DNA from: an uncultured Pelagibacteraceae bacterium
GTDB lineage: Bacteria; Pseudomonadota; Alphaproteobacteria; Pelagibacterales; Pelagibacteraceae
DNA: 64,000 nucleotides
Assembly (NCBI GenBank): GCA_902596325.1
Contig: CACJTN010000002.1
Location: 1 to 64,000, forward strand
Reading direction: 5' to 3'
Numbering within the stretch: position 1 is the first letter of the stretch; each line of letters opens with the position of its first letter. Positions 35,841 through 40,853 of this stretch are shown piece by piece. The notes below the pieces were generated by a model. The model saw nothing but the letters and a program-made list of their open reading frames with translations, was not told the origin of the DNA and ran no database searches. A program made the position numbers and the translations under genes.

Positions 35841-36753
35841 TTTCCAAAAAAGCATCGGCAAATTTACTTGAGTCAAAAATTTGCAAATCATCTATTTTTT
35901 CTCCTAGTCCAAGTGCGATTATTGGTAACCTAAATTTTTGGGCTATTGCTATTAATATTCCACCTTTTGCAGTTCCATCTAGTTTTGTCATTATTATTCC
36001 CGTTATTGGGATGATTTTGTTAAACTCATCGACTTGATTAATTATATTCTGACCTGAAGTCGCGTCTAACACTAATATTACCTCATGAGGAGAGTCTGAA
36101 ATAATTTTTTTTGTTACATTTGCTATTTTTTTATATTCTTCCATTAAGTTTTTTTTATTTTGAAGTCGTCCAGCTGTATCTAATAGTGTTTTATTAACAT
36201 TTTTTGATTTAGCATGTTCAGCAGCTTTGTAAGCAACAGATGCAGGATCGGAGCCAGGAGAGGATTTAATAATTTCTACACCAATTCTTTTTGACCATTC
36301 CTCAAGCTGCTCTATAGCAGCAGCCCTGAATGTATCACATGCAGCAAAAGCTACTTTATTGTCATTATCCTTTAAAATTTTACCAATTTTCCCAATAGTT
36401 GTTGTTTTTCCTGCACCATTCACCCCTGATATTAAAATTATATCATTTAAATTCGATCTATTAAAAAAATTCTTCTTCTCTAAAGGAAGCATCAAATTTA
36501 TTATAAACTCTTTTAATATTTTATTTATCTCATTTATCGGATCTAAATTGGGATCAATTTTTCTATCTGATATTATTGTTTTAATTTTAGCAGATGCTTC
36601 AACTCCAACATCTGAACTAATTAAAAATTCTTCTATTTCATCAAGTTTTTTATCGTCTATTTCCTTTTTAACAACAATCTCTCTAAACCCTTCGGAGATT
36701 TTATTAGCACTTTTTTTAAAACCTAATTTAAACTTTTCAAATATTCCCATCAT
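35833..36753 (-). CDS. ftsY: Signal recognition particle receptor FtsY (NG domain)
   Basis: SGVNGAGKTTTIGKI, AACDTFRAAAIEQLEEW, LLDTAGRLQNK, MTKLDGTAKGG. Confidence 0.97.
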   Translation of the reverse strand: MMGIFEKFKLGFKKSANKISEGFREIVVKKEIDDKKLDEIEEFLISSDVGVEASAKIKTIISDRKIDPNLDPINEINKILKEFIINLMLPLEKKNFFNRSNLNDIILISGVNGAGKTTTIGKIGKILKDNDNKVAFAACDTFRAAAIEQLEEWSKRIGVEIIKSSPGSDPASVAYKAAEHAKSKNVNKTLLDTAGRLQNKKNLMEEYKKIANVTKKIISDSPHEVILVLDATSGQNIINQVDEFNKIIPITGIIMTKLDGTAKGGILIAIAQKFRLPIIALGLGEKIDDLQIFDSSKFADAFLETN

Positions 36754-37574
36754 AAATTTATTTCAATTGATTTAATATTAGATACCGCACCTTTCATTTT
36801 TATAGAATTATTCTTATTTATAGAAATAGATAAATTCCCCAATTCAAATTCTATATCTACCTCATTTCCAGTCAGACCGTTTATTTTACTAGCAAAAGCA
36901 GTAGCACATGCAGCCGATCCACAAGCCTTAGTTAATCCTGCACCCCTTTCCCAGACCTTAACAAATATTTTTTTGCTATCCTTAATTTCAGCAAGTGTAA
37001 TGTTACATCTATCTGGAAATAATTTATTTATTTCTAAATTTGGTCCAATATCTTTTAAATTAAAATTTTCTAATTTATCAACAAAGAAAATAACATGAGG
37101 ATTACCCACATTTACAGCCGTACCACCAAAATATTCATTTTTATTATTATCTGTTATTTTTAAATTTAAATTTTTTGTATCCATTTTCTGACTGATAGGT
37201 ATTTCTTTCCATTCAGTTTTTGGTATTCCAATAACAGTTTCAACTAAATTTTTGTCCAAAATTTTGGAATTTAAAACCCCTGATTTTGTTCTTAAAATTA
37301 TTTCTTTTTTATTGTTTTCTTCAGATATTAAATAAGCAACACACCTTGTGCCATTTCCACAAGCTCCAGACTCACTTCCATCTGAATTATAAAATATTAA
37401 ATCAGCATCGGACTCATCTGAGTGGTTCATGATAATAAGTTGATCGCATCCTATAAATGACCGATTACAAATTTTAATTATTTGGTCACTAGAAAGCTTA
37501 ATTTTATCAGTTCTGTTGTCGATAATCACAAAATCATTACCTAATCCGTCCATTTTAAAAGCTTTAAAATTCAT
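36750..37574 (-). CDS. dapF: Diaminopimelate epimerase
   Basis: MDGLGNDFVIIDNR, SESGACGNGTRCVA, VNVGNPHVIFFV, GAGLTKACGSAACA. Confidence 0.97.
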   Translation of the reverse strand: MNFKAFKMDGLGNDFVIIDNRTDKIKLSSDQIIKICNRSFIGCDQLIIMNHSDESDADLIFYNSDGSESGACGNGTRCVAYLISEENNKKEIILRTKSGVLNSKILDKNLVETVIGIPKTEWKEIPISQKMDTKNLNLKITDNNKNEYFGGTAVNVGNPHVIFFVDKLENFNLKDIGPNLEINKLFPDRCNITLAEIKDSKKIFVKVWERGAGLTKACGSAACATAFASKINGLTGNEVDIEFELGNLSISINKNNSIKMKGAVSNIKSIEINL

Positions 37575-37634
37575 ATATTTATACTTAACTTATTTATTGA
37601 CTTTTTGAACCTCTATTATACTTTACCGACGTTT

Positions 37635-37710
37635 CCGCAAAAAACAGCTATTTGCGGTGTCTTTGTTTACAAAGAGATCGACATCAGTCAGCGATATTCG
37701 CCCACTGATG
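37635..37710 (+). ncRNA. Candidate structured leader RNA (three consecutive hairpins) upstream of ffh
   Basis: CCGCAAA/TTTGCGG (37635-37657); TCTTTG-TTTA-CAAAGA (37660-37675); CATCAGT/ACTGATG (37682-37710) enclosing GCGA-TAT-TCGC. Confidence 0.65.
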
Positions 37711-37731
37711 CGTTAACTGCTGGAGTAAAAT

Positions 37732-39090
37732 ATGTTTGAAAATTTAACAAATAAATTTGATGAAGTTTTTTCATCTTTAAAAAAAGCTCCATCTCTTGAT
37801 GAAAATCAAGTAGATGAGGGGTTAAAAGGCATACGGCTAGCATTGCTTGAGGCGGATGTTTCATTAGAGGTTGTCAAAGATTTTATAGAAAAAGTAAAAC
37901 CTAAAGCAATAGGTCAAGAAATTATAAGATCTACTTCTCCAGGGGATATGGTTGTGAAGGTTGTCTATGACGAGCTTGTAAATTTATTAGGAACAAAAAA
38001 TACTGAAATTAATCTAAATTCAGTCCCACCTGTCCCAATAATGATGGTTGGATTACAGGGTTCAGGAAAAACAACTACTACTGCGAAAATAGCTAAATAT
38101 ATTGAGAAGAATAATAAAAAAAAAGTTATGATGGTAAGCTTGGACGTTTATCGTCCTGCTGCACAAGAGCAATTAAAACTATTAGGTGATCAAAATAATA
38201 TTATAACTTTACCAATTATAGAGGGCCAATTACCTGCAGATATTTGTAGACGAGCACTAAGTGCAGCTAGCTTAAACGGATCTGAGGTCTTATTGTTTGA
38301 TACTGCTGGTAGAACTCAAATTGATCTTCAAATGATGAGTGAGATTAAAGAAATAGAAAATATTATTAAACCAAATGAGGTAATGCTTGTTGCAGACTCA
38401 CTCACGGGTCAAGTTGCTGCAAATGTTGCAAAAGAATTTAAAAATACAGTAGATGTTTCAGGGATAGTCCTTACAAGATCAGATGGTGACGGTCGTGGAG
38501 GTGCTGCTTTAAGCATGAAACACGTAGCAAATGTACCAGTAAAATTCTTGGGTGTAGGAGAAAAAATCGATAATCTAGAAGTTTTTCATCCTGATAGAGT
38601 TGCAAATAGAATATTAGGTATGGGAGATATTGTATCTCTTGTAGAAAAAGCTGCTGAAGATCTAGACGAGGAAAAATTAAAAAAAGCTGAGGAAAAATTA
38701 AAAAAGGGACAATTTTCTCTTGATGACTACCTAAGTCAACTAAGACAAATGAAAAAAATGGGTGGTATTGAAGGCGTAATGTCTTTTTTACCGGGGGTCT
38801 CTAAAATTAAATCTCAAATGGATCAAGCTGGTGTAGATGAAAAAATTATTACCCAAAATGAAGCTGTTATTTTATCGATGACCAAAACAGAAAGAGAAAA
38901 TCCTAAAATAATTGATGGCTCAAGAAAAAAAAGAATTGCTAATGGTTCTGGAACCGACATTGCCACTATCAATAAATTGTTAAAACAATTTAAAATGATG
39001 TCTGAAATGATGAAAAAGATGTCAAAAGGAAATATGAAGGGAATGGCGGACAAGGGATTGCCACCAGAACTTTTTAATCAACTTAAATAA
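37732..39090 (+). CDS. ffh: Signal recognition particle protein Ffh
   Basis: [44 protein letters not shown]-domain [16 protein letters not shown]. Confidence 0.98.
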
Positions 39091-39101: not shown

Positions 39102-39611
39102 ATGTTAAAACTTAGATTATCAATGGGAGGTACAAAAAAACGTCCCGTATATAAAATAGTTGTTGCAGATAGTAGATTTTCTAGAGACGGAAGATTTATT
39201 GAGAAGCTAGGATTCTTTAATCCTCTAATACCAAAGGATAAAAAGGAACGCGTTGGTCTAGAGGCAGAGAGAATCAAATACTGGCTAGGACAAGGTGCTC
39301 AACCAACAACAAGAGTAGCTAGGATCTTAGGTGAAAATCAAATAATGCCAATGCCGCAAAAAGGAAACAATCCTCAAAAAGCTGTACCAAAGAAAGATAG
39401 AAAAAAAGAAGATAAATCGGAGACATCAAAAGACGGGGGCAAAACATCAGAAGCTCCTAAAGAAGAAAAGAAAGCAGAAGCTCCTAAGGAAGAGAAAAAG
39501 GAAGAAGCTCCTAAAGAAGAAAAGAAAGCAGAAGCTCCTAAGGAAGAGAAAAAGGAAGAAGCTCCTAAAGAAGAAAAGAAAGCAGAAGTTCCTAAGGAAG
39601 AGAAAAAATAA
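39102..39611 (+). CDS. rpsP: 30S ribosomal protein S16 with a long charged repeat tail
   Basis: [42 protein letters not shown]-terminal EAPKEEKK repeats. Confidence 0.96.
39451..39609 (+). repeat. In-frame tandem repeat in the rpsP tail, 27-bp unit (54-bp paired unit)
   Basis: GAAGCTCCTAAAGAAGAAAAGAAAGCA alternating with GAAGCTCCTAAGGAAGAGAAAAAGGAA; about six units. Confidence 0.93.
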
Positions 39612-39613
39612 AA

Positions 39614-40303
39614 ATGTTTACTGCAAGAATATTTACTTTGTATCCAGACATGTTCCCGGGCCCCCTAAACGAAGGATTATTTCGTAAGGCCATGGAAAAG
39701 AATATTTGGAATTTAGAAAAAGTAGATATTAGAAAATATGCTACTGATAAACATACTACAGTTGATGATACTCCATATGGTGGAGGCTCTGGAATGCTAA
39801 TGAAGCCAGATGTAGTAGCTAGTGCGATAGATAAAAATGTTAAAAAGGGTGAAAAGGTAATTTTTTTAACACCTAGGGGAAAAATTTTTAATCAAAATAT
39901 TGCTAAAGAACTTTCGTCTGAGAAAACAATAAATATAATTTGTGGTCGCTTCGAAGGCATAGACCAGAGAGTTGTTGAAACTAGAAATATTCAAGAATAT
40001 AGCTTAGGTGATTTCATTTTATCAGGTGGGGAGGCAGCAGCATTTGTCTTTATCGATGCAATAATAAGATTGTTACCTGGAATTCTTGGCAATGAAAATT
40101 CAATAAAAGATGAAAGTTTTGAAAATGGTCTTTTAGAGTATCCTCAGTATACAAAACCTCAAATTTGGGAGGAAAAAGAAGTCCCAAATGTACTTTTATC
40201 AGGAGATCATGCTAAAATTAAACACTGGCGTTTGTCTCAATCTGAGGCTATAACTCGCGACCGAAGACCAGATTTATGGCAAAAATATAATAAAAAAAAC
40301 TAA
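39614..40303 (+). CDS. trmD: tRNA (guanine-N1)-methyltransferase TrmD
   Basis: [56 protein letters not shown]. Confidence 0.98.
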
Positions 40304-40304
40304 T

Positions 40305-40853
40305 TTGAAAAACTTAATAATGAAATCAATTGATGAAATAAACAGAGTTAATGTTGCTAAAATATCTGCTGAAAAAAAATTGCCTAATTTTTTTCCAGGA
40401 GACATTATCAAAGTTGGTGTAAAAATAACAGAAGGTAAAAGAGATAGAATTCAGTACTTTGAAGGCGTTTGTATAGCGAAAAAAAATAGAGACATTAACT
40501 CATCATTTACAGTCAGAAAAATATCTTTTGGTGAAGGCGTTGAAAGAACATTTGCTCTTTATAGTCCAATTATTGACTCTATTAAAGTCATTAGATCTGG
40601 ACAGGTAAGAAGAGCCAAACTTTATTATTTAAGAGATAGAACTGGAAAGTCAGCTCGTATCGCTGAAAAGATAAGAAAAAATATTGGAATTGAAGTAGAA
40701 ACAAAGTTAGAAAATACTAAAGAACCTATTCAAACTGAAAGCCAAGTCACAGAAGATAGTAAAGAAGATCCAACAAAAAAACCTGAAAATAAAGAAGATC
40801 CAAAAAAAGAGGAGGTTGTTAATACAGAAGAAGGATCTTCAGAAAAAAAATAA
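40305..40853 (+). CDS. rplS: 50S ribosomal protein L19 with charged C-terminal extension
   Basis: [53 protein letters not shown] start, alternative ATG at 40320. Confidence 0.96.

Follow-up and report, generated by a model that had tools for sequence, protein, structure and literature searches.

The ffh RNA motif as a candidate ribosomal-protein leader of the ffh-rpsP-trmD-rplS operon in Alphaproteobacteria

Introduction

As a rule, the leader of a ribosomal-protein mRNA is bound by a product encoded in that same operon (PMC7247131). Among the described examples, L19 leaders are found in Firmicutes and Flavobacteria, and an S16 leader upstream of rpsP-rimM has been proposed in Flavobacteria (PMC7247131). 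The trmD operon of Escherichia coli has no known regulation, which places the rpsP/trmD operon among the few ribosomal-protein operons of this kind (PMC10931766).

An RNA motif upstream of ffh, the gene for the protein of the signal recognition particle (SRP), was described in 2009 by Meyer et al. (BMC Genomics 10:268; PMC2704228), with 'Candidatus Pelagibacter ubique' as its source, and is catalogued as Rfam RF01793, 'ffh'. It was presented as one bulged hairpin in which two cytosines are conserved, and regulation of ffh was left as a possibility. The bacterial small SRP RNA (RF00169), which is tied functionally to Ffh, is encoded by a separate gene in Pelagibacterales. SRP itself is described as universal, for example in PMC8230904.

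Here, the leader of ffh was analyzed in a window of 64,000 nucleotides from an uncultured Pelagibacteraceae bacterium (contig CACJTN010000002.1, positions 1 to 64,000) and compared with its relatives. The element itself is known: the hairpin with its conserved C-C mismatch (P3), located ahead of ffh in Pelagibacter and in other Alphaproteobacteria, is that of Meyer et al. What is new is a fuller structure (a class-wide helix P2, a hairpin P1 and a 3' YUUGG-like element are added, and the bulge is redefined), the rejection of a pseudoknot, and a shift of the functional link away from SRP and toward the rpsP portion of the operon, drawn from gene loss across a whole order.

Results

The leader lies between dapF and ffh and contains a catalogued motif

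The leader is placed between the divergent genes dapF and ffh, with ftsY next after dapF on the minus strand, and the operon runs in the order ffh-rpsP-trmD-rplS (Table 1). When positions 37560-37800 were searched with Rfam models, RF01793 alone reached E ≤ 1, above its gathering threshold and with this one match in the genome, confirming the suspicion of the initial annotation that the structure may already be catalogued. Neither RF00169 nor an L19 leader matched, in agreement with the earlier remark that the SRP RNA core is lacking. The RF01793 model starts inside P2 and leaves out P1, covering only P3 and half of P2.

Table 1. Features of the dapF-rplS region, in window coordinates.
Feature	Position	Strand	Basis or remark
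dapF	36750-37574	-	divergent from ffh
Putative promoter	TTGACT 37597-37602 and TATACT 37617-37622 (37597..37622)	+	recurring boxes in Pelagibacterales leaders
P1 hairpin	CCGCAAA 37635-37641 / TTTGCGG 37651-37657	+	outside RF01793
P2 helix	CGGU 37655-37658 / AUCG 37677-37680 and UCUUUG 37660-37665 / CAAAGA 37670-37675 (37655..37680)	+	covariation
RF01793 'ffh' match	37667-37719	+	51.2 bits, gathering threshold 35, full model length
P3 hairpin	CATCAGT 37682-37688 / ACTGATG 37704-37710; inner GCGA 37691-37694 / TCGC 37698-37701 (37682..37710)	+	RF01793 core
YUUGG-like element (GCUGG in the window)	37719-37723	+	9 nt past P3, two-base overlap with Shine-Dalgarno sequence
Shine-Dalgarno GGAG of ffh	37722-37725	+	sequence; start codon 37732
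ffh	37732-39090	+	Pfam SRP54, SRP_SPB, SRP54_N
rpsP (S16)	39102-39611	+	Pfam PF00886
trmD	39614-40303	+	Pfam PF01746; no rimM between rpsP and trmD
rplS (L19)	40320-40853	+	Pfam PF01245

Many of the unique Pelagibacterales leaders, though not all, have a TTGAC(A/T) box and a TATAGT/TAGTTT-like box at a similar distance from P1. We infer a transcription start at about 37628-37634, just 5' of P1 and not downstream of 37710, where the initial annotation held that a start would count against the leader; the mRNA would then contain all of P1 to P3. A scan of the region for promoter and terminator consensus sequences returned nothing useful; the TTGACT/TATACT pair is missing from it because of its spacing.

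The same scan found no terminator-like site, which speaks against a trans-acting sRNA that arises by cleavage of, or termination in, the leader, as the Rfam type 'sRNA' implies. Array probes did detect sm5, a transcript predicted at about 120 nt, in the dapF-ffh gap of Sinorhizobium meliloti (PMC2573895), and metatranscriptomic detection is cited in PMC2704228. Since each of the 160 sampled copies is closely followed by ffh or rpsP, with one copy found per genome, a trans-acting role is very unlikely and the type 'sRNA' looks misleading.

The motif was present in 131 of the 147 Pelagibacterales sampled and, at E 0.001, in 112 of 387 genomes of a class sample under strict filters. All 98 matches in a phylum-wide sample, for which the number of genomes from other classes is not given, fell in Alphaproteobacteria. 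Of the 80 S16 loci of named Alphaproteobacteria with enough upstream sequence (L190-L265), nearly all had the motif ahead of ffh-rpsP when searched with models built here, which also found Sphingomonadales copies that the first model had missed. A search of the phage collection gave no match.

Three helices are maintained by compensatory changes

All arms of the three stems that the initial annotation had named upstream of ffh were found in their places, and the covariation on which it had staked the leader was strong. In 28 Pelagibacterales leaders, 96.9% of the cells in P1, P2 and P3 taken together were paired, with 11 pairs showing two-sided changes; none of 500 shuffles matched these values, and slid controls were 37-45% paired. 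The 161-nt stretch of the window had a minimum free energy of -37.6 kcal/mol (z = -2.98), and none of 200 shuffles was as low.

For P1, 92.9% of cells were paired and three pairs had two-sided changes in the 28 leaders, and the 61-nt region of P1 and P2 folded better than its shuffles. Its sequence and position vary outside Pelagibacterales and Rhizobiales-type genomes.

The second hairpin stood as a stem, TCTTTG/CAAAGA, but not at the length first given; with CGGU/AUCG added it becomes a helix of 11 bp containing one mismatch. Its cells were paired in 97.7% of cases, and seven of its ten pairs had two-sided changes. Because MAFFT left the variable-length P2 arms of distant genomes unaligned, the class-wide comparison was carried out by permutation on 78 non-redundant leaders. 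The P2 3' arm scored 13.21 with its own upstream sequence versus 9.70 (sd 0.29) with those of other genomes (0 of 2,000 permutations). Judged by these comparisons, P2 is a helix of about 11 bp found across Alphaproteobacteria, taking the forms CGGUC/GAUCG, GCCCC/GGGGC, CACUC/GAGUG and GCGCC/GGCGU, among many.

P3 consists of 7 bp, a C-C mismatch (37689/37703), an A-C opposition (37690/37702), 4 bp and a 3-nt loop. Across the class, 10 of its 12 pairs had two-sided changes (0 of 500 shuffles). The C-C mismatch was retained in 82 of 84 unique motifs, and the position beside it was A-C in 57, C-G in nine, G-U in five and U-A in three. The supposed 2x2 internal loop is thus one invariant C-C and one variable position, indicating that the C-C mismatch is the real signature of P3.

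These features bear on whether P1-P3 serve only to protect the mRNA, or to insulate its ribosome binding site, as an unliganded structured 5' UTR. The position right after the inferred transcription start is a common one for stabilizing hairpins, and the variability of P1 outside the two groups named above fits such a role. Plain stabilizers would need neither an almost invariant C-C mismatch nor an element at fixed spacing downstream (see below), and we regard this explanation as unlikely.

A 3' element accounts for the conserved GCUG of the proposed pseudoknot

The YUUGG-like element keeps a constant distance from P3 in Pelagibacterales, in other Alphaproteobacteria and in the order without SRP described below, while the approximate distance from the end of the motif to the start codon ranges from 9 to more than 100 nt.

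It had been proposed that CAGC in the P1 loop pairs with GCTG (37719-37722) at the Shine-Dalgarno sequence. This complementarity exists in the window and is not conserved in relatives: CAGC occurs in the P1 loop of 18 of the 84 unique leaders, and 39 have GCUG without CAGC. In permutation tests across leaders at three redundancy levels, the pairing was no better than permuted once relatives were collapsed (73 of 300, 21 non-redundant leaders), and the pseudoknot was rejected. GCUG is conserved because it is part of the YUUGG-like element.

A long-range stem between the P1 5' flank and the Shine-Dalgarno region was also discarded, its apparent excess disappearing after relatives were collapsed; most of this flank is promoter and therefore probably untranscribed. 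Whether P1 or P2 hides the Shine-Dalgarno sequence in the window varies, in computed folds, with the transcript end chosen.

P1 and P2 share nucleotides in Pelagibacterales

The P1 3' arm and the base of P2 have CGG (37655-37657) in common. In 6 of the 28 leaders, G-C-G changed jointly to A-U-A in the P1 5' base, the shared base and the P2 3' base (alignment columns 20/40/65), so that both helices were kept. In the window, the two folds as drawn had energies of -25.3 and -24.7 kcal/mol, 0.6 kcal/mol apart, and the energy difference between the folds ranged from -9 to +8.6 among relatives. In the order without SRP, P1 and P2 do not overlap. Given the shared nucleotides, P1 and P2 may be alternative folds in Pelagibacterales, which we treat as no more than a lead.

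The motif stays with rpsP in an order that appears to lack SRP

At all 160 sampled loci the next gene was ffh, or rpsP in three loci of one family; the ffh count includes nine loci whose top match was FtsY-like (a paralogue) and which have Ffh at the same place. The motif and rpsP were on one contig in 65 of 68 genomes, at a median of 1.75 kb apart, and in the other three S16 was unmatched or on another contig. rpsP, trmD and rplS were always downstream of the motif.

One order as a whole appears, from its gene content, to be without SRP. The Ffh M domain was found in none of its 18 genomes (G185, G290, G370, G437, G498 and G528-G540; loci L168-L185 and L186-L189) versus 14 of 14 named controls, the search with PF00448 and PF02978 giving matches to both in all 14 control genomes; completeness is 90% or more and contamination 5% or less in six of the 18 genomes. 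In five genomes of one family of the order, no SRP54-type GTPase was detected, control genome G003 having two, and SRP RNA was found in none of the five versus three of three Pelagibacterales controls. A literature search found no paper on the absence of SRP from this order, and such a loss is notable in itself given the described universality of SRP. These are marine Alphaproteobacteria with small genomes of about 1-1.4 Mb.

The motif scored above threshold in 14 of the 18 genomes, and in every one of these rpsP is the next gene, 33-40 nt downstream of the motif. dapF is divergent upstream of the motif in 13 of them, and in the 14th the contig stops first. This arrangement indicates that the ffh gene once separating leader and rpsP was lost, with the leader retained. 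Compensatory changes were observed within the order, CGGU/AUCG to CAGU/AUUG and CGUUC/GAACG to CGUCC/GGACG (P2 and P3), indicating that the structure is under selection without SRP.

These genomes speak against SRP autoregulation, in which Ffh, alone or free of 4.5S RNA, would bind the leader and repress its own translation. ffh is the first gene in most genomes, and this was the discoverers' own guess (PMC2704228). The RNA is nevertheless kept at rpsP, with compensatory changes, in 14 genomes without detectable Ffh, FtsY-type GTPase or SRP RNA, and P3 is without the 4.5S domain IV core. Within the SRP-less order this explanation is already refuted, and as a general account we consider it improbable; outside that order, where ffh comes first, an additional link to SRP may exist.

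RimM was absent from all eight sampled Pelagibacteraceae genomes that keep the motif (G001, G003, G005, G007, G009, G011, G013 and G020), which excludes it as a universal ligand. It was also absent from one of two SRP-less genomes tested and found in three of three genomes of a second Pelagibacterales family. Retention upstream of rpsP without SRP, together with retention without rimM, indicates that the RNA serves the rpsP-trmD-rplS part of the operon. The initial annotation had inferred a leader for SRP or for the following ribosomal-protein genes; the evidence favors the latter, through the 14 SRP-less genomes that keep the RNA at rpsP.

Discussion

The RNA has the structure, conservation and operon linkage of a cis-acting leader. 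We favor, with some reserve, a ribosomal-protein leader of the ffh-rpsP-trmD-rplS mRNA. Since leaders of this kind follow the rule of binding an own-operon product and rpsP and rplS are always downstream, S16 and L19 are the candidate ligands; S16 would be the likeliest, because rpsP remains adjacent to the leader, followed by L19. On this evidence from comparative genomics, what the leader senses is probably the assembly of ribosomes and not protein targeting.

The proposed leader would consist of P1, P2 and P3 and end in the YUUGG-like element by the start of the first gene. S16 (otherwise L19) in excess over rRNA would bind the P2-P3 core, and the bound protein would lower expression of the operon, ffh being carried along in the ribosomal-protein feedback. 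As a weakly supported further step, binding could favor one of the two folds in Pelagibacterales through the nucleotides that P1 and P2 share. A more specific proposal casts the 'ffh' RNA as the feedback switch that the trmD (rpsP) operon has been missing: S16 on P2-P3 would shift a P1/P2 strand exchange close to the mRNA start, tying the supply of SRP and S16/TrmD/L19 to ribosome assembly, and in the SRP-less order the RNA would control rpsP directly. In this complete form the idea is tentative and we would rather doubt it than adopt it.

Searches with a P2-P3 model gave no rRNA-like counterpart, the best scores being 8.9 bits (E 0.24) in E. coli rrnB and 8.8 bits (E 0.34) in an Ensifer rRNA operon. 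Many ribosomal-protein leaders are without sequence mimicry of rRNA. A complementarity of P3 to 16S h15 noticed by eye was dropped, as P3 variants alter it freely.

The remaining alternative is that TrmD or a small molecule is the ligand, in the manner of a riboswitch, with no ribosomal protein involved. The trmD gene, too, is always found downstream; we know of no precedent for TrmD autoregulation through RNA, and no metabolic gene carried the motif among the loci examined. We hold this to be the least probable of the explanations considered.

Compared with described leaders, the ribosomal-protein leader favored here resembles the S16 candidate of Flavobacteria, which likewise lies upstream of rpsP(-rimM) and for which S16 autoregulation has been proposed (PMC7247131); that candidate belongs to another phylum and is likened here by gene position alone, with no homology claimed. 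The L19 leaders of Firmicutes and Flavobacteria (PMC7247131) concern the product of rplS, which belongs to this gene set too, but differ in position, and had no Rfam match in the window. Through the gene loss in the SRP-less order, a motif that has been an orphan 'ffh sRNA' for more than 15 years is turned into a testable hypothesis of autoregulation by S16 or L19. If it is true, the level of SRP would be set by ribosome assembly across much of Alphaproteobacteria.

As a separate observation on the protein, S16 of the window carries a long low-complexity C-terminal tail with APKEEKK-type repeats (39360-39611), and an analogous tail, of Ala/Pro/Glu, is present on the S16 protein of the SRP-less order (L169:522-1037).
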